This document shows, piece by piece, positions 3-17,256 of a DNA stretch of 20,312 nt (positions are counted from its first letter, which is position 1; the number at the start of each line of letters is the position of its first letter). Both the position numbers and the translations under genes were made by a program. Origin of the DNA: a virus; IMG/VR virus record IMGVR_UViG_3300044616_000015, positions 1 to 20,312 of that record; one strand, given 5' to 3'. The notes under the pieces are model-generated. The model was not told the origin of the DNA, searched no databases, and saw only the letters and a list, made by a program, of their open reading frames with translations.

Positions 3-77
3 AAGCTGACTTCGTCTAAGACCGCAAATGACCCGAATAGCCGTATTAATAAATCACTTAGAGCATGGAAGTGTTAA
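3..77 (+). CDS. C-terminal end of an upstream gene (partial)
   Basis: The third frame is open from the window edge to a TAA at 75-77 and would encode a 24-residue C-terminus ending in ...INKSLRAWKC. The other two forward frames stop within the first 20 bases, so if an upstream gene continues into the window this is its frame. It would overlap the next gene by 13 bases if that starts at 65, or be separated by 2 bases if that starts at GTG 80. Nothing in so short a tail identifies the product. Confidence 0.45.
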   Translation, partial: KLTSSKTANDPNSRINKSLRAWKC

Positions 78-328
78 CCGTGGACTTAGCATTCGTTTGG
101 AATGGCGCACTATCGCTATTTGTGGGTTTGTTTGCATACATCGCCCATGAGAAGTTCTCTGAACTAGCCCGTATCACGATTCTTTTGAACAAGACTCGTG
201 AGGAAATCGCGCGAGATAACGTGACTAAGGCAGAAGTAGATCGGATTACAGATCACATAGATCAGCGGTTCAACCGGCTGGAGAACAAGATAGACCAGCT
301 AATTGAGTCCCAGCGGAGGGTGTTATGA
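65..328 (+). CDS. small membrane-anchored coiled-coil protein
   Basis: The 87-residue product has one hydrophobic segment near the N-terminus (about residues 7-27), then a charged helical region (about 30-85) with heptad-like spacing of Leu/Ile, as in a short coiled coil. This layout (N-terminal anchor, cytoplasmic or lumenal coiled coil) is common among small phage proteins near structural genes, but the function is unknown. The ATG at 65 has only a weak Shine-Dalgarno match and overlaps the upstream reading frame. A GTG at 80 gives a product starting M-DLAFVWNGAL, just after the upstream stop, and is a reasonable alternative start. The stop overlaps the next start (ATGA at 325-328), suggesting translational coupling. 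Confidence 0.7.
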   Translation: MEVLTVDLAFVWNGALSLFVGLFAYIAHEKFSELARITILLNKTREEIARDNVTKAEVDRITDHIDQRFNRLENKIDQLIESQRRVL

Positions 329-1224
329 AGAGGAAGGTTAAGAAGTTTGGCGCTGGTGGCGACATCCTGACCGGAGTAGGTCTAGGTATGATTGGCTACG
401 ACTTGTACAAAAGGTTGAAGGGCGACGACGAGAAAAAAGAATACAAAGGTGGCCTTCGCTTACCCGAAAAACTTGACGAAGAACCGCCAAAAGCTAAGCC
501 AAAAGAAGAGACTCGTGAAGAGTATCTTGAAAAGCGCGGTGCTAAGCCCCTGAAGGAAACGGGCACACGCGAAAACCCTTTTTATAAAGAAGACGAGGAT
601 AAGTCTGAGCCCGAGCCAGCACCAAAACCTGCACCTAAGAAACGCGTAGCGTCACAGGCTTTCCCGGTTACTAAGCCTACTAAAACAGTAGAAGACAAAC
701 CTACCCCGAGTAGTCCAAGTACATATAAACCAAACGATGAGCGTCCGTCTAAGCCTTATCCATCGGATGAAGAGCGGGCTAAGACTAAGGCCAAGGCTCA
801 AGCCAAAGCCCAAGGCCCATCTGGTAAAGCTGCTGCGCAGAAAAACGCCTTTAAAGCCGATACTTCAGCATACGATGAGAACCTCGCTAAGTACCGTAAA
901 CAACTAGAGGATGCTAAAGCCGATAAAAATCCGCTGAAGCCAAGCAAGAGCCCTAACCGTAGCTATAACAAAGGCGGTAAGGTCAAGAAATACGCTGAAG
1001 GCGGTACGGCTACTTCTAAGCCTGAACCAAAGAAGAAAGATACGATGCCTGAATGGGCAAAGAATGAGCGCGAGAACCGTAGACGCGACGAGCTTAATAA
1101 GCGCGAAGCTGAGGGTGCAGCGAAAGAAGTTAAGCGCAATATGAGCACGTTTGGGTTTAAGAAGGGCGGCTCAGCATCATCCCGCGCTGATGGTATTGCT
1201 ATTAGGGGTAAGACTCGTGCCTAG
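325..1224 (+). CDS. Lys/Pro-rich basic protein with C-terminal RADG tag
   Basis: This 299-residue protein is dominated by Lys, Glu, Pro and Ala and is probably largely disordered. A short Gly-rich hydrophobic stretch lies at residues 11-27, the middle (about 50-215) is Pro/Lys/Glu low-complexity with an AKTKAKAQAKAQ run at 152-163, and a charged helix spans about 243-272. It carries two K-[FY]-x-x-GG motifs (KKFGAGGD at 6-13 and KKYAEGGT at 221-228). It ends with the KKGG...RADG-IAI-RGKT motif (279-299) shared with three downstream genes. A strong GGAGGG site at 315-320 precedes the ATG, which overlaps the previous stop. The family is unknown to me; the setting suggests a virion or head-associated protein. 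Confidence 0.75.
   Translation: MKRKVKKFGAGGDILTGVGLGMIGYDLYKRLKGDDEKKEYKGGLRLPEKLDEEPPKAKPKEETREEYLEKRGAKPLKETGTRENPFYKEDEDKSEPEPAPKPAPKKRVASQAFPVTKPTKTVEDKPTPSSPSTYKPNDERPSKPYPSDEERAKTKAKAQAKAQGPSGKAAAQKNAFKADTSAYDENLAKYRKQLEDAKADKNPLKPSKSPNRSYNKGGKVKKYAEGGTATSKPEPKKKDTMPEWAKNERENRRRDELNKREAEGAAKEVKRNMSTFGFKKGGSASSRADGIAIRGKTRA
1204..1208 (+). promoter_or_regulatory. Shine-Dalgarno site that fixes the GTG start at 1217
   Basis: AGGGG lies 8 bases upstream of GTG 1217, inside the end of the preceding gene. The alternative ATG at 1250 has no comparable site at normal spacing, so the GTG is preferred. Confidence 0.6.
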
Positions 1225-1600
1225 TGTCTCAGGTAAACAACACCGTCTCATGGCTGCGGTGGCAACGAATCCAGCCGTGGCTAAGAAAACTAAGATTCCA
1301 CAATCTGTGGGAAAAGAGTTTATGGAAGCCGATAAAGGCAAGAAATTTAAAGGAGGCGGTGAAATGAAAGAATCAAAAGCGATGGTCAAGAAGGAGATCG
1401 GCTTCATGAAAAAGAAGGGCGCTCCTAAGTCCATGATCAAGCATGAGATGAAAGAAGCTGGCATGAAAAAGATGGCTTCGGGCGGTCTAGCTGCTGGACA
1501 CAAGTCGGCTGACGGCGTCGCACAAAAAGGTAAGACCAAAGCTATGCACCCTAAGATGGCTGGTGCTAAAGGTATGAAGTACGGCGGTAAAGCCTGCTAA
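1217..1600 (+). CDS. small basic protein with SxxQHRLM-type N-terminus and RADG-like tag
   Basis: Starting at GTG 1217 the product has 127 residues and begins M-PSVSGKQHRLMAAVA. That N-terminus (S-x-x-Q-x-x-[FL]-M followed by a VGKEF...ADKGKKF segment) matches a pattern I recall from many small phage proteins, which supports the GTG over ATG 1250 and over upstream extensions. The middle is Lys/Met-rich and helical, with repeated MKK and K-x-M-I-K-H units (about 50-86). A KKFKGGGE motif sits at 42-49. The tag-like segment SADGVAQKGKTK (97-108) is followed by a further Lys/Gly tail ending KYGGKAC, so here the motif is internal. The function is unknown; the gene overlaps the previous one by 8 bases. 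Confidence 0.75.
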   Translation: MPSVSGKQHRLMAAVATNPAVAKKTKIPQSVGKEFMEADKGKKFKGGGEMKESKAMVKKEIGFMKKKGAPKSMIKHEMKEAGMKKMASGGLAAGHKSADGVAQKGKTKAMHPKMAGAKGMKYGGKAC

Positions 1601-1612
1601 AGGAGAATTAAG

Positions 1613-1855
1613 ATGCGTCCGATTCCAAAACCAAGGGGTCCTCGTGGTCCGTCTACCCCCGGTAAACCGATGACAGGCCCAATGCCGGGCCCAGTAGTAG
1701 GTCGTCCACCTACAATGCCAAGCGGTCCCGGCCCAATGCCGGGCCCAGTAGTAAGTCGTCCACCACCTACTATGGGCATGAAGAAAGGCGGTTCCGCTTC
1801 TTCTCGTGCGGATGGTTGCGCACAGCGTGGTAAGACCAAGGGCACAATCATATGA
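1613..1855 (+). CDS. Pro/Gly-rich small protein with C-terminal RADG tag
   Basis: The 80-residue protein has two parts. Residues 1-55 are rich in Pro, Gly and Met and contain two copies of GPMPGPVV-x-RPP spaced 18 residues apart, so this half is almost certainly disordered or polyproline-like. Residues 57-77 carry the KKGG...RADG-CAQ-RGKTK tag seen in neighbouring genes, with quite different codons. A clear AGGAG lies upstream of ATG 1613. The stop overlaps the next ATG (ATGA at 1852-1855). No enzymatic motif is visible. A virion or assembly role is inferred from location only. Confidence 0.75.
   Translation: MRPIPKPRGPRGPSTPGKPMTGPMPGPVVGRPPTMPSGPGPMPGPVVSRPPPTMGMKKGGSASSRADGCAQRGKTKGTII
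1676..1764 (+). repeat. two 35-base direct repeats inside the Pro-rich gene
   Basis: The segments 1676-1710 and 1730-1764 are identical except for one base (G/A at the 26th position) and lie 54 bases apart, encoding the duplicated GPMPGPVV-x-RPP unit. Such close DNA identity suggests a recent tandem duplication rather than protein-level selection alone. Each copy also contains a GGCCC/GGGCC inverted repeat with a 6-base loop. Confidence 0.85.
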
Positions 1856-2127
1856 TGGCCTCACGCGGCATGGGCGCAATTAGCCCTTCCAAGATGCCCG
1901 GCGGGAAGAAGAAAGCCCGTCGGGATAACACCGACTTTACGAAGTACAAAGAAGGTGGGGAGGTCAATGCTGCTGGTAATTACACCAAGCCCAGTCTGCG
2001 TAAGAGAATTGTGTCTGAAGTAAAAGCCGCAGCAACGCATGGTACGGGTGCTGGTCAGTGGTCAGCTCGTAAAGCGCAGCTGGTTGCCAAGAAGTACAAA
2101 GCAGCAGGCGGAGGATATCGTGACTGA
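1852..2127 (+). CDS. small basic protein with GQWSARKAQ domain (DUF5872-like module)
   Basis: The 91-residue product begins MMASRGMGAISPSKMPGGKKK, a basic head that recurs in small phage proteins. It has a TKYKEGGEV motif around residues 31-39 and then a compact C-terminal domain (about 44-91) with YTKPSLRKR, GQWSARKAQLVAKKYK and a terminal AGGGYRD. I recall this domain from bacterial and large-virus proteins annotated DUF5872, where it is often followed in the same chain by the module encoded here by the gene at 2479. The biochemical role is unknown; the basic surface suggests nucleic-acid or acidic-protein contact. The start at 1852 uses an ATGA overlap; a second ATG at 1855 is also possible. 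Confidence 0.75.
   Translation: MMASRGMGAISPSKMPGGKKKARRDNTDFTKYKEGGEVNAAGNYTKPSLRKRIVSEVKAAATHGTGAGQWSARKAQLVAKKYKAAGGGYRD
2110..2114 (+). promoter_or_regulatory. Shine-Dalgarno site that fixes the GTG start at 2120
   Basis: GGAGG lies 5 bases upstream of GTG 2120, within the last codons of the preceding gene. It makes GTG 2120 the best start; the open frame extending further upstream to 2039 is a shadow of the previous gene. Confidence 0.7.
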
Positions 2128-2482
2128 GAAAAGAACGCCAAAAGAAGTTGCAGAAGAAATGGAAAGTGAACAAAATTTTCCGGTTCTGCATAAATACAGC
2201 AAGGTCGGCAAAGCGGTTGAAAAAATGAAGCCCGGCGCCGGTAAAGATTTGGCAACAGGCGCATATTTTGGTGGGATGGCTCCAGTAGGAACCGCTCAAG
2301 TTTTGCAGTCTGCGGTAACAGGGCGCAAGGGCAGAAGCCAAGAAGAAGTGGATGAGCTTACTCGCGAAGTTGGACGCGGTCAGCGAGCGGAGAAGAAAGC
2401 CAAAGGCGGCAAAATATCGTCAGCATCAAAACGCGCCGATGGCTGCGCCATTCGCGGTAAGACTAAAGGACGAATGGTGTGA
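2120..2482 (+). CDS. small basic protein with C-terminal RADG tag
   Basis: The 120-residue product from GTG 2120 begins M-TEKRTPKEVAEEMESEQNF. Three parts can be seen: an acidic/basic helical head (1-35), a Gly/Ala-rich central stretch (about 37-68, GAGKDLATGAYFGGMAPVG) that could be a hydrophobic hairpin, and a charged helix (70-95). The chain ends with the KGGK...RADG-CAI-RGKTKG tag (95-120). The tag is spelled with codons different from those of the other three carriers. The gene overlaps the previous stop by 8 bases and the next start by 4 (GTGA). The function is not recognised. Placement between the two DUF5872-like modules is notable. Confidence 0.75.
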   Translation: MTEKRTPKEVAEEMESEQNFPVLHKYSKVGKAVEKMKPGAGKDLATGAYFGGMAPVGTAQVLQSAVTGRKGRSQEEVDELTREVGRGQRAEKKAKGGKISSASKRADGCAIRGKTKGRMV

Positions 2483-3867: not shown

Positions 3868-4035
3868 ATGGACAGTATGAAAAAGGTAGCTGACAAAGCA
3901 GTCGAAGGACATGAAAAGCGTATGCACGGAGCCAAAAAAATGGCTAAAGGCGGCGTGACCGGCGAAGCCATGAAGAAGTATGGACGTAACATGGCGCGTG
4001 CTATGAACCAGCGCGGTACTTCTAGGAGCCGATAA
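3868..4035 (+). CDS. 55-residue basic protein
   Basis: ATG 3868 follows an AGGAG site at 3858-3862 and opens a 55-codon frame ending at TAA 4033-4035, which overlaps the next ATG by one base. The product is very basic and Met-rich: MDSMKKVADKAVEGHEKRMH, then GAKKMAKGGVTG and KKYGRNMARAMNQRG. The tight spacing, good ribosome site and resemblance to short KKGG/NMARAMNQ proteins remembered from other phages make it credible despite its size. It has KK-x-x-KGG and KKYG elements like those of the basic proteins at 325-2482 but lacks the RADG tag. The function is unknown. Confidence 0.75.
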   Translation: MDSMKKVADKAVEGHEKRMHGAKKMAKGGVTGEAMKKYGRNMARAMNQRGTSRSR

Positions 4036-4226
4036 TGGAAAAGATTAAGTCTTCACCTCCGTCAGTGCTTAAGTCTTACTCAGGCAAAGAGTGCATGAAC
4101 GAGATGAACATCGCTGGTGGTGTAGTTAGCAAAGGTAACTACAAAGAGCCTAAGACCACTGGTATCAAGATTCGTGGCACAGGTGCTGCGACTAAAGGTG
4201 TAATGGCACGAGGCCCGATGGCATGA
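4035..4226 (+). CDS. 63-residue basic protein with RGTGAATKG C-terminus
   Basis: The product is 63 residues, with an N-terminal half containing a lone Cys (SGKECMNEMNIAGG) and a basic C-terminal half ending in IKIRGTGAATKGVMARGPMA (44-63). That ending is one I recall in many aquatic phage small proteins. It is not the RADG tag, but it has the same placement and flavour (RG, KG, RG with small residues), so it may be a second C-terminal signal of the same kind. AGGAG at 4024-4028 gives proper spacing to ATG 4035. The stop overlaps the adaptor start by 4 bases (ATGA). Confidence 0.75.
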   Translation: MEKIKSSPPSVLKSYSGKECMNEMNIAGGVVSKGNYKEPKTTGIKIRGTGAATKGVMARGPMA

Positions 4227-6075: not shown

Positions 6076-7077
6076 ATGTACGGAAATTACCCCTACTCTG
6101 GTGCGCCGTATAGTTCAACTGGGCAAGCAGTTGTCCCGGCTATTACTGTTGCACTAACGGGGGTTTCCGCTACAGGGAATGTTGATACCGTTATCCCACG
6201 GTACGACGCGTTTCAGGCAATCACCGGTGTTGTAGCTTCAGGTGCGCTTGGCACTGTTGTGCCATTACCAGCAAGTTCGGCTGCACTCTCCGGCGTTCAA
6301 GCAGCCGGTAATGTTGGCACCGTCGTTGGTGTTCCGGGTGAGGTTAAAGCACTAACCGGCGTTTCGGCATCTGGGCAGCTGGGTACCATGATTGCTTCGG
6401 CGGGCCCTGTTATTGCATTGACGGGTGTCTCAGCAAGTGGTCAGGTAGGCTCTGTTGTTGGTACGCCAGAGTTGTTTGCGGCGTTGACTGGCGTTAGCGC
6501 AGACGGCTTTGCCGGTAATGTGGGCGTTGATATTTCGGTTGCCTTGACGGGCGTTTCGGCTGCTGGTCAAACCGGCGTCTTCATGTTCAGCACCGGTGCG
6601 ACGTTGACTGGTGTTTCAGCATTAGCGCAAGTAGGGACAGTAACTACATTAGCTGAAAACAGCGCAGCACTAACTGGCGTAGAAGCTATTGCAGAAGATG
6701 GCGCTCCGTCCACTGCGCTTTCTGCTTTCTTAAATCACGTCCAAGCACAAGGGTTTGTCGGTAACGTAGGCGCAGTGCCGGGCATATTCCAAGCGCTGAC
6801 AGGCGTGTCTGCATCCGGGCAGATAACCAATCCGGGGCCTGACATCTCGATGACGTTGACTGGTGTGTCTGCAAGCGGTATAGCTAATGCAGTCAATACG
6901 CCGTTGGCAACCGCCACTGCTAGAGGTATTACGGGCAACGTAACACCGGTGGTGGGTAAGATCGTACAACTCTCTGGCGTATCTGCGTCGGGGGTAGCGG
7001 GTGATGTTTACAACGCGTCGTGGACAGAAATTGACACCGACGAAGATGCACAGTGGGTGCTAATTAACACGGTATAG
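6076..7077 (+). CDS. repeat protein of about 14 ALTGVSASGxVGTV units
   Basis: The 333-residue product is almost entirely a tandem array with consensus ALTGVSASGQVGTV followed by a variable 6-8-residue linker. Units start near residues 25, 47, 69, 91, 113, 135, 155, 175, 197, 217, 239, 259, 280 (degenerate) and 297, so the period switches between 22 and 20. The array is preceded by a Tyr/Pro-rich head (MYGNYPYSGAPYSSTG) and closed by an acidic WTEIDTDEDAQWVLI cap. Regular beta-strand/turn units suggest an elongated solenoid or fibrous shaft. I recall similar arrays in aquatic phage genomes near tail genes. The ribosome site before ATG 6076 is weak. Confidence 0.8.
   Translation: MYGNYPYSGAPYSSTGQAVVPAITVALTGVSATGNVDTVIPRYDAFQAITGVVASGALGTVVPLPASSAALSGVQAAGNVGTVVGVPGEVKALTGVSASGQLGTMIASAGPVIALTGVSASGQVGSVVGTPELFAALTGVSADGFAGNVGVDISVALTGVSAAGQTGVFMFSTGATLTGVSALAQVGTVTTLAENSAALTGVEAIAEDGAPSTALSAFLNHVQAQGFVGNVGAVPGIFQALTGVSASGQITNPGPDISMTLTGVSASGIANAVNTPLATATARGITGNVTPVVGKIVQLSGVSASGVAGDVYNASWTEIDTDEDAQWVLINTV
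6151..7008 (+). repeat. tandem 60-66-base coding repeats
   Basis: About 14 protein-level repeats of 20-22 residues. At DNA level the units differ widely at third codon positions (for example ACGGGGGTTTCC, ACCGGCGTTTCG and ACGGGTGTCTCA for TGVS), so the array is old and maintained as protein rather than freshly amplified. Confidence 0.85.
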
Positions 7078-15193: not shown

Positions 15194-15357
15194 TCGTCGT
15201 AGTGCTGGCTGTGCTGTTGACGTTCTTCATAGTGATGCCGATCTTGGCGTTTATGTACTACGACATGTATTACGCGACACAGGCAGCGGTGCACGAGGTT
15301 AGGAAGATGCGGGAGTTGCGCAAAGAAATACAGATTGAAAGGATGTACGGGCAATGA
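15145..15357 (+). CDS. small single-span membrane protein overlapping its neighbour
   Basis: The frame is open from ATG 15052 to TGA 15355-15357. The clearly gene-like part starts near GTG 15145 (M-ADDKKRDDENVPWSLIVVV): an acidic/basic head, a strong membrane segment (SLIVVVLAVLLTFFIVMPIL) and a charged tail (AVHEVRKMRELRKEIQIERM) likely to be a cytoplasmic coiled coil. ATG 15052 or ATG 15127 would add a Gly/Ser/Asn-rich head encoded by the same bases as the upstream protein's membrane segment. None of the three starts has a strong ribosome site; GTG 15145 is preceded by GGGG at 15136-15139. The stop overlaps the endolysin start (ATGA). A lysis-associated or holin-like role is possible. Confidence 0.6.
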   Translation: MADDKKRDDENVPWSLIVVVLAVLLTFFIVMPILAFMYYDMYYATQAAVHEVRKMRELRKEIQIERMYGQ

Positions 15358-16010
15358 TTACCCTTGCACAGTTTAAGAAGTTCGCACCTAACAGCAAATA
15401 CCAGCAGCAGTGGTACGACACGCTGTTTAGCCCGCAGACTGAATTTGGCGGCAAGTCTCTTCTAGAAGAGTACCAGATCAACACCCCCAAGCGCATTGCA
15501 GCTTTTATCGCGCAGTGTGCCCACGAGTCGGGCGGCTTTGTGTTTGTCACCGAGAACCTGAACTACAGCGCGTCGGGTCTGATGCGTGTCTTCCCCAAGT
15601 ACTTTCCTGATCCCGCCACAGCCAAACTGTATGAGCGCAACCCACAGAAGATAGCCAGTAAGGTATACGCCAGTCGGATGGGTAATGGCGACGAGGCTAG
15701 TCAGGAGGGGTTCAAATTTCGCGGACGCGGGATTTTGCAGCTGACCGGCAAGGACAACTATTTTTGGTTCGCAGCGTCGCTGGACATCACGCCAGAAGAA
15801 GCGGCTGAATATTTGGAGACCTTCGAGGGCGCAGCCCAGAGCGCCTGCTGGTTCTGGGAGACGAATAAGTTAAACACGCTGGCAGATGCAGGCGATATTA
15901 AAGGCATGACTCGGCGTATTAACGGCGGTTTAATTGGACTAGACGATAGGATTCATCACTATGAACTGGCGCTTAACAGCTTTAATACTTCTAGCAGTCG
16001 CTTGGCTTAG
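15354..16010 (+). CDS. GH19-family endolysin (chitinase/lysozyme fold)
   Basis: The 218-residue protein has the GH19 layout used by phage endolysins to cleave peptidoglycan glycan strands. AHESGGF at 56-62 places the catalytic acid at Glu58, ENLNYSASGL at 67-76 supplies the second acidic residue at Glu67, and the substrate-cleft block FKFRGRGILQLTGKDNY is at 120-136. ACWFWETNKLN (about 164-174) and TRRINGGLIGLDDR (about 186-199) are the usual C-terminal helices. No signal peptide is seen, so export would need a holin, for which a candidate lies downstream. Length matches single-domain phage GH19 enzymes. The last 50 bases also encode the signal peptide of the lipoprotein at 15961. Confidence 0.93.
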   Translation: MITLAQFKKFAPNSKYQQQWYDTLFSPQTEFGGKSLLEEYQINTPKRIAAFIAQCAHESGGFVFVTENLNYSASGLMRVFPKYFPDPATAKLYERNPQKIASKVYASRMGNGDEASQEGFKFRGRGILQLTGKDNYFWFAASLDITPEEAAEYLETFEGAAQSACWFWETNKLNTLADAGDIKGMTRRINGGLIGLDDRIHHYELALNSFNTSSSRLA

Positions 16011-16606: not shown

Positions 16607-16788
16607 TGCTTATCTACTTCCGCATGGCTGTTACTGTTTTACTAAGTATGTTCTTGGTGTTTCAGATTCACGCCGGGGAAACGAAGAAGGTGTGCCACGC
16701 TGAGAAAAGACAGGGTAAAGAGGTACAGGTCTGCCGTGAGATCAAGGTACACAAGAAGCTGGATGGCACGAAGGTGCCGCCAAAATGA
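16603..16788 (+). CDS. small exported protein with a Cys pair
   Basis: The 61-residue product has a hydrophobic N-terminus (MMLIYFRMAVTVLLSMFLVF) and a likely signal-peptidase site near QIHA-GE (residue 24). The remaining 37-residue basic peptide contains two Cys (31 and 43) in VCHAEKRQGKEVQVCREIKV. This suggests a small periplasmic protein with one disulphide. I recall similar short exported proteins with a KVHKKLDGTKVP-like end in aquatic phage lysis regions; no function is known. Both ends overlap the neighbouring genes by 4 bases, implying coupling with the holin-like gene and the spanin gene. Confidence 0.75.
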   Translation: MMLIYFRMAVTVLLSMFLVFQIHAGETKKVCHAEKRQGKEVQVCREIKVHKKLDGTKVPPK

Positions 16789-17249
16789 ACCCGTGGCTGA
16801 TACTCTCCTTCGTCTTAGCTGTTGGCGCAGCGGCTGGGGGCGGGTATTATAAAGGCAATTCTGCGGGTAAATCTGAAGTCCAGCAGCAGTGGGATAAGGA
16901 GAAAGCCGAGCAGTACGCCGCCTACGCCAAGGGGCAGGAAGAAGCGCGTCAACGGGAGCAAGCACTACAAGCAAACGCAGACAAGCTGCGGAGGGATAAG
17001 GATGCTGAGATCAGGAACATTAATGCTCGCGCTGCCGCTCTTACTAACAGCCTGCGCGACCGCCAAACCCGCCCCACCGAAACCGATACCGTGTCCAGTA
17101 CTCCCGGCGCTAGACCAGCCAGTTGTAGTGGAAAAGAGCTTTACCGAGAGGATGGAGAGTTTCTTGTTAGGCTCGCTGCCGAAGCAGACGGGCTTAAAGC
17201 TGCCCTCGACCAATGTTACCGACAATACGACGCCGCAAGGCAAAAGTAA
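16785..17249 (+). CDS. Rz: Rz-like inner-membrane spanin
   Basis: The 154-residue product has the i-spanin layout: an N-terminal signal anchor (MNPWLILSFVLAVGAAAGGG, about 4-22), then a long Gln/Glu/Lys/Arg-rich coiled coil through the periplasm (about 30-95, EKAEQYAAYAKGQEEARQRE). A C-terminal helical segment (DGEFLVRLAAEADGLKAALD) is typical of Rz-like proteins, and two C-terminal-half Cys residues could cross-link partners. In Gram-negative phages i-spanin pairs with an outer-membrane lipoprotein (o-spanin) to fuse the two membranes after endolysin has acted. The o-spanin is encoded in the +1 frame inside this gene at 17002. The start overlaps the previous stop (ATGA). Confidence 0.9.
   Translation: MNPWLILSFVLAVGAAAGGGYYKGNSAGKSEVQQQWDKEKAEQYAAYAKGQEEARQREQALQANADKLRRDKDAEIRNINARAAALTNSLRDRQTRPTETDTVSSTPGARPASCSGKELYREDGEFLVRLAAEADGLKAALDQCYRQYDAARQK
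16990..16995 (+). promoter_or_regulatory. Shine-Dalgarno site for the embedded Rz1 gene
   Basis: GGAGGG lies 6 bases before ATG 17002, within the Rz reading frame. A near-perfect site at this spacing, unrelated to the start of Rz, is strong support for independent initiation of the embedded lipoprotein gene. Confidence 0.8.
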
Positions 17250-17256
17250 GGAATAG
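17002..17256 (+). CDS. Rz1: Rz1-like outer-membrane spanin lipoprotein, embedded in Rz
   Basis: The 84-residue product from ATG 17002 is a classic o-spanin: a signal peptide (MLRSGTLMLALPLLLTAC) with lipobox L-T-A-C and lipidation at Cys18, then a short Pro-rich mature chain (AKPAPPKPIPCPVLPALDQP). Ala at +2 permits outer-membrane sorting. It lies in the +1 frame relative to Rz, ends 7 bases beyond it, and its reading frame is open further upstream only as noise. Position, lipobox, Pro-richness and the strong ribosome site together make this assignment secure. It would pair with the Rz-like protein to disrupt the outer membrane at the end of lysis. Confidence 0.9.
   Translation: MLRSGTLMLALPLLLTACATAKPAPPKPIPCPVLPALDQPVVVEKSFTERMESFLLGSLPKQTGLKLPSTNVTDNTTPQGKSKE

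Follow-up and report, generated by a model that had tools for sequence, protein, structure and literature searches.

What leads several neighboring genes of one virus, whose products are otherwise unrelated, to share a peptide at or near their ends? The question is raised by the viral record IMGVR_UViG_3300044616_000015, analyzed over its positions 1 to 20,312 (20,312 nt, 20.3 kb; here the window), in which a sequence-only reading had reported four proteins with a common C-terminal peptide, here called the tag. A motif scan of the window bears this out, with tag cores at 1186, 1508, 1808, and 2435, each on the + strand, and with no copies in 100 dinucleotide shuffles of the window compared with four in the real sequence; the residue positions originally given for the tags were correct to within 1–2 residues. 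Our preferred explanation, to which sequence comparison and analogy with known systems lead us to give an even chance, is that the tag is a C-terminal, probably disordered address peptide that loads variable basic proteins into the virion.

The Tag and Its Carriers

The tag comprises 15–25 residues, i.e. a flexible KKGG-(S/A/K)-rich linker, a core S-x-RADG(I/C)A(Q/I)RGKT(R/K), and an end G(K/R)M(V/C) or A; the linker preceding it is rich in Gly, Lys, and Ser. Its copies and their carriers in the window are as follows.

325..1224, + strand: tagged protein 1, open reading frame; 299 residues, Lys/Pro-rich, hypervariable body
1162..1221, + strand: tag of protein 1, short form, KGGSASSRADGIAIRGKTRA-stop
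1217..1600, + strand: extended-tag carrier, conserved protein; 127 residues, GTG start; PHROG 16759, E 2e-16
1505..1540, + strand: extended tag of the 1217 protein, SADGVAQKGKTK
1613..1855, + strand: tagged protein 2; 80 residues, Pro/Gly-rich, hypervariable body
1781..1852, + strand: tag of protein 2, KKGGSASSRADGCAQRGKTKGTII-stop
2120..2482, + strand: tagged protein 3; 120 residues, GTG start, hypervariable body
2402..2479, + strand: tag of protein 3, KGGKISSASKRADGCAIRGKTKGRMV-stop

In the proteins encoded at 325, 1613, and 2120 the tag is the exact C terminus, and two kinds of tag ending occur, RGKTRA-stop and RGKT(R/K)G(R/K)M(V/C/I)-stop. The protein at 1217 carries an extended tag that is followed by about 20 more residues (AMHPKMAGAKGMKYGGKAC). 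The 1217 copy is set apart from the three tail tags by its extension, and its carrier, unlike theirs, belongs to a conserved family. Not every carrier is small, as had been proposed, since one has 299 residues; this protein (325..1224) has no Pfam match, and its PHROG matches are weak only (E at least 0.2).

The string G-I-A-Q-R-G-K-T within the core literally fits the P-loop pattern GxxxxGK[ST], but other tags have H, F, L, or R in place of the lysine, and there is no room for a P-loop fold in a chain that ends 2–5 residues after the pattern; we rejected this assignment.

Distribution and Gene Position

A degenerate pattern (ADG-x-A-x-R-GKT-(R/K)) retrieved at least 120 stretches in viral contigs. 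In the translated loci found in this way, the motif lies 5 residues from the stop in 153 cases and 2 residues from it in 31, extended forms mostly continue for 8–27 further residues after the motif, and a tag profile gave 310 matches in 33,900 reading frames, with none in shuffled frames. Invariance within this set means little, the set having been chosen by the tag itself, and tag-independent anchors were used instead. All 46 loci anchored on relatives of the 2712 adaptor protein, with at least 3 kb of upstream sequence, are tagged; each has one to five tagged genes, all on the same strand, and nearly all of these begin within ~3 kb upstream of the adaptor, with one further tagged gene just downstream of it in two loci. 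The motif is conserved in these relatives, and the failure of conservation that the sequence-only reading had named as a potential counterargument was not found. With the capsid protein as anchor, 28 of 33 loci are tagged, again on the same strand, with tags starting 1.0–6.2 kb downstream of the capsid gene; the five untagged loci have other proteins or, in three, degenerate ends (GGLVGIESKGKTKCKMR, GGGVELRGKTKGKQIVMR, and GGKVRGAGCAKKGVRPCKMM). No tags were found upstream of the capsid gene in 74 loci. In eight contigs of 56–66 kb every tag lies in one short cluster and nowhere else; in the 59-kb contig G005 the gene order is terminase, portal, GroES-like co-chaperonin, probable scaffold, capsid, small proteins, tag cluster, and SU10-type adaptors, where the capsid protein is Mu gpT-like and the scaffold is assigned by position only.

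Bacterial genomes are nearly tag-free (11 stretches in 257 billion bases), and the bacterial stretches with a true tag (L128, L130, L134, and L135) resemble phage fragments in metagenome bins. In L135, a Patulibacter metagenome contig, an acyltransferase-like frame runs directly into the phage tag, an apparent assembly chimera. Tag peptides gave no tblastn match in 50,697 deposited phage records, at a sensitivity at which the same query and database size yield E values down to ~3e-7 on tag-bearing contigs. The peptide strings tested in the literature occurred in no relevant context, and no description of such a tag was found in the papers searched.

A similar capsid protein is present in the phages Pag-Yong1, Pra-JY27, and MinM2 (73% identity) and in DSL-LC04, HTVC023P, HTVC027P, CRP-901, and CRP-902. 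Among deposited relatives, the tag was seen, in the regions inspected, only in Planktothrix phage Pag-Yong1, whose capsid protein shares 73% identity with the one encoded on a tag-bearing contig. This phage, inspected as one of three 65,014-base records that have this capsid match, was found via its capsid gene only and was missed by tblastn because its tag is too divergent. Its 308-residue protein UMO75986.1 has the C-terminal sequence GRDGCAKRGRTKGRFI-stop, which matches the tag profile with E 0.0017. As in the tagged loci above, the tag is C-terminal and its gene lies between capsid and portal-adaptor genes; Pag-Yong1 differs in having one tagged gene in the inspected region and a divergent tag (RGRT for RGKT). 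The tag thus marks one section of a broader assemblage of phages, and its carriers are a mostly uncultured, largely aquatic group of bacterial viruses.

Variable Bodies on a Detachable Peptide

With the tag removed, 298 tail-tagged proteins fall into 104 body clusters (BLAST, E 1e-5; the identity of bodies is possibly inflated, as reading frames may extend upstream of true starts), and just 14 of the 208 pairs encoded at one locus belong to the same cluster. The tags of different body clusters are 75% identical, about as alike as the tags of related bodies. The rest of the carrier proteins is unrelated, as had been stated from the sequence, and they do not form one homologous family along their full length, the second counterargument that had been foreseen. 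A single protein family or a recent duplication is not supported, the bodies being unrelated and the tags not alike in DNA.

Tag-removed homologues of the three tail-tagged proteins of the window were found in 1, 0, and 0 of 31 loci, respectively (counted for tagged protein 1 at 50% or more body coverage); the body of the 2120 protein, at 0 of 31 in this anchored set, has two relatives among all fetched loci. Homologues of the 1217 protein occur in 20 of the 31 loci, and those of eight untagged neighbors and adaptors in 16–31. Nothing else in the region is as poorly conserved as the tail-tagged bodies. Every tail-tagged protein has a positive net charge (median +11.5), and 95% of the bodies are basic after removal of the tag.

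The tag is detachable, because proteins of the DUF6321 type exist both with it (9) and without it (38, ending in RAW(N/K)C); the window's own DUF6321-type copy (3–77, with its end at about 77) is without the tag. Like the tag, DUF6321 (PF19846) is a modular C-terminal element, whose carriers range widely in length and include an annotated virion protein; in nine loci the tag has been added behind the domain. DUF6321 differs in its size of ~80 residues, in being a domain with a conserved sequence of its own, and in its wide occurrence among cyanophages and pelagiphages, whereas the tag is a short linear motif. The PHROG matches of the domain (G005 L146:2802–3041; window 3–77) lie at the C terminus of families of 99 to 928 residues, and, judged by these matches, it is itself a modular end domain.

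Selection on the Peptide

Among 100 distinct tail tags of the adaptor-anchored set, D is present in 99%, A in 96% and 94% at two places, R in 94–95%, and K in 98%, and I or C account for 97% at one site; the two G and the T set the alignment register and are not evidence of conservation. In the 1217 family (45 homologues) D99, G100, A102, G105, K106, and T107 are nearly invariant. Two proteins of this family, L081:2885–4087 and L116:3119–3589, contain the tag unit twice.

Codons for the same tag residue are no more alike within loci (identity 0.37) than between loci (0.40), which places selection on the peptide and bears out the proposal of peptide-level conservation rather than recent DNA duplication. 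The accompanying statement that codons differ at nearly every synonymous position was somewhat overstated, as the copies at 325 and 1613 differ in 9 of 13 same-residue core codons. Homologous pairs are few; among them the tag region differs at 0.5–0.6 of third codon positions and at 0.10–0.35 of first and second positions. Agreement of tag letters within loci is weak (two sites with p 0.0025 and 0.0125, and none at four others); it gives no more than a hint of co-adaptation of tags to a partner and is explained equally well by shared ancestry.

When modeled by AlphaFold, the 2120 and 1217 proteins reach a mean predicted local distance difference test score (pLDDT) of 51 and 64, respectively. 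The tag region of the 1217 protein is modeled as coil with pLDDT of about 50; the helix at the tag in the low-confidence 2120 model is not to be trusted. These low-confidence regions are weak evidence that would agree with a linear motif. No match to the tag, the 1217 protein, or the 1852 protein was found among solved structures.

Indirect Links to the Virion and Parallels with Known Targeting Systems

The first 40 residues of the 1217 protein form a module (PHROGs 16759, 22033, and 25121) that is also seen in small proteins of phiKZ-like jumbo phages and of Stenotrophomonas phage BUCT555, there encoded between terminase and capsid genes; the same module opens an annotated structural protein of phage 121Q. 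The DUF6321-type domain closes an annotated virion protein of Synechococcus phage S-SCSM1. The two elements suggest an indirect link of the tag carriers to the virion.

In phage T4, the internal proteins IPI, IPII, and IPIII, which are divergent, basic accessory proteins, have in common a capsid targeting sequence (CTS) that is N-terminal and cleaved by the head protease, and for which encapsidation is proven (PMC7697877, PMC9026906). As with the tag, a short peptide is present on several divergent basic proteins per phage and persists while its carriers are poorly conserved between relatives; for the tag there are one to five carriers per locus and 104 body clusters. Unlike the CTS, the tag stands at or near the C terminus in all carriers, is found on about a hundred body clusters in an unrelated virus group, and has its role in virion loading assigned here by inference. 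By analogy, the tag may work like a targeting sequence, and its C-terminal position and unrelated virus group set it outside the T4 family.

The cargo peptide of encapsulins is C-terminal and follows a flexible linker, a placement matched by the tag in its order of KKGG/Ser-rich linker, tag, and stop and in the low AlphaFold confidence there. In encapsulins a short targeting peptide selects cargo for an HK97-fold shell (PMC8346489). The shell context is different: the tag genes are accompanied not by an encapsulin gene but by the head genes of a tailed phage, with terminase, portal, a GroES-like protein, a capsid protein of the Mu gpT-like kind, and adaptors in the operon, and encapsulin cargo is an enzyme, whereas the cargo of the tag would be a variable set of proteins without recognized function.

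A Model for Tag Function and Its Alternatives

A shared address or docking peptide, as the sequence-only reading had proposed, is the best-supported account of an element that is C-terminal, preceded by a linker, detachable, present on many unrelated bodies, conserved as a peptide, and found only from the capsid gene to just past the connector adaptor; targeting to the capsid, the connector, or packaged DNA would each fit the gene position. In the mechanism that we propose, the tag sits on a fast-changing set of one to five basic proteins per phage, with genes between those of the major capsid protein and the head-tail adaptor. Late in infection, it would dock on a single conserved part of the head under assembly, which might be the capsid protein, the scaffold, the portal, or the adaptor. 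Any tag carrier would thereby be built into the virion, probably alongside the DNA in its interior, and the bodies would be the cargo, rapidly exchanged between phages and perhaps ejected into the host, and we infer their location, docking partner, and ejection on this basis. Such a system would act like the T4 targeting sequence, but at the opposite end of the protein. Tentatively, and with somewhat less than even confidence, we extend this to the possibility that any protein gaining the 15–25-residue tail would be packaged, the capsid-adaptor cluster being an interchangeable effector magazine delivered with the genome into hosts.

Several observations weigh against loading into the virion. 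No protein came to light that is restricted to tag carriers and could act as the partner, and a non-exhaustive scan of ten head-region proteins in one 59-kb relative (G005) revealed no separate head protease, which leaves the earlier suggestion of recognition by a phage protease without support. The T4 sequence is N-terminal and cleaved, whereas the tag is C-terminal. No function was recognized for the bodies: Pfam and PHROGs were uninformative for the large carriers and those of the window, except where the 1217 family matched by its N-terminal module, and PADLOC returned nothing. HTVC023P, HTVC027P, CRP-902, GB2A, and others with a related capsid are without the tag in the inspected regions, so that capsid type alone does not require it.

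The tag might instead dock its carriers on the outside of the particle, or on the connector or tail, as a decoration or accessory peptide at a repeated site on the capsid, a cement protein, or an adaptor. The position of the genes between capsid or cement genes and adaptors fits this as well, and hypervariable bodies would suit surface-exposed parts, but carriers that are all positively charged are more readily understood as proteins packaged with DNA than as proteins displayed on a surface, and no tail-fiber-like folds or binding domains were recognized in the bodies; we consider outside docking unlikely. Basic charge is also the attraction of an Arg/Gly/Lys-rich tag that would bind nucleic acid and, without the help of another protein, hold its basic carriers on the phage DNA that is to be condensed or packaged. 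Conservation exceeds charge, however, with D and A nearly fixed and I/C almost the sole choice at one site; a generic charge motif should tolerate a shuffled order, the tag is held at or near the C terminus, and the bodies remain largely basic when it is removed, which makes such an element distinctly unlikely.

The strict C-terminal placement in most carriers and the nearly fixed Asp-Gly pair, a pair that is generally chemically reactive, could point to a signal read by a host or phage processing machine, whether for degradation, cleavage, cross-linking, or handling by a host factor. This we regard as quite improbable: a general handle would not be expected to be restricted to the head-connector cluster and absent from other phage proteins, and the extended forms end 8–27 residues beyond the tag. 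The tags also stand at gene ends, the tagged genes of the window abut or overlap the start codon of the next gene, and bodies are swapped between phages, as might be seen if the motif were no peptide signal but had arisen by recent duplication of a gene, served for recombination, or acted as a DNA or RNA element where genes adjoin. Counts of start/stop overlaps carry no weight here, since the stop codon by itself fits the pattern counted. Third codon positions are randomized within and between loci, so that little shared DNA is left to recombine on or to fold, and the bodies are unrelated; this explanation has a very low probability and was rejected as largely refuted by codon divergence.

Neighboring Genes and Other Features of the Window

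Conserved genes without the tag flank and separate the tagged genes.

65..328, + strand: untagged conserved neighbor; homologues in 16/31 relatives, median identity 94%
1852..2127, + strand: untagged conserved neighbor phrog_17747, between tagged genes; 24/31 relatives, 88% identity
2479..2712, + strand: untagged conserved neighbor phrog_14910; 22/31 relatives, 91% identity
2712..3452, + strand: head-tail adaptor, SU10_adaptor family; PF24175, E 3e-11

By eye, the 65..328 protein has an N-terminal hydrophobic segment followed by a coiled-coil-like stretch. An assignment of the 1852 protein to DUF5872 was not supported by Pfam and was dropped, and the structure matches of the 2479 protein are designed repeat proteins that look like chance. 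A small conserved protein at 4035–4226 has the ending IRGTGAATKGVMARGPMA, with a similar ending (KIRGCGAATKGTMARGPMA) in relative L320, and Pelagibacter phage HTVC023P likewise encodes a small protein with an RG-x-GAAR string; this is possibly a second shared motif. Inspection by eye further revealed a protein at 6076–7077 with a repeated ALTGVSASG-type unit of ~20 residues, and a glycoside-hydrolase-19-like lysis gene (15354–16010) ahead of two overlapping frames at 16785–17256 that resemble an embedded Rz/Rz1 spanin pair.

Implications

If the tag loads proteins into the virion, the cargo of a phage group with essentially no cultured members could be recognized by a rule based on sequence. 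This cargo may consist of anti-host proteins that are ejected, and 104 clusters of unannotated proteins would gain meaning. The tag would also offer a short C-terminal peptide for placing chosen proteins in phage heads in the laboratory. The system would then be a second, independent case of the T4 principle of a fixed address and a variable cargo, in which the exchange of cargo would be directly testable.
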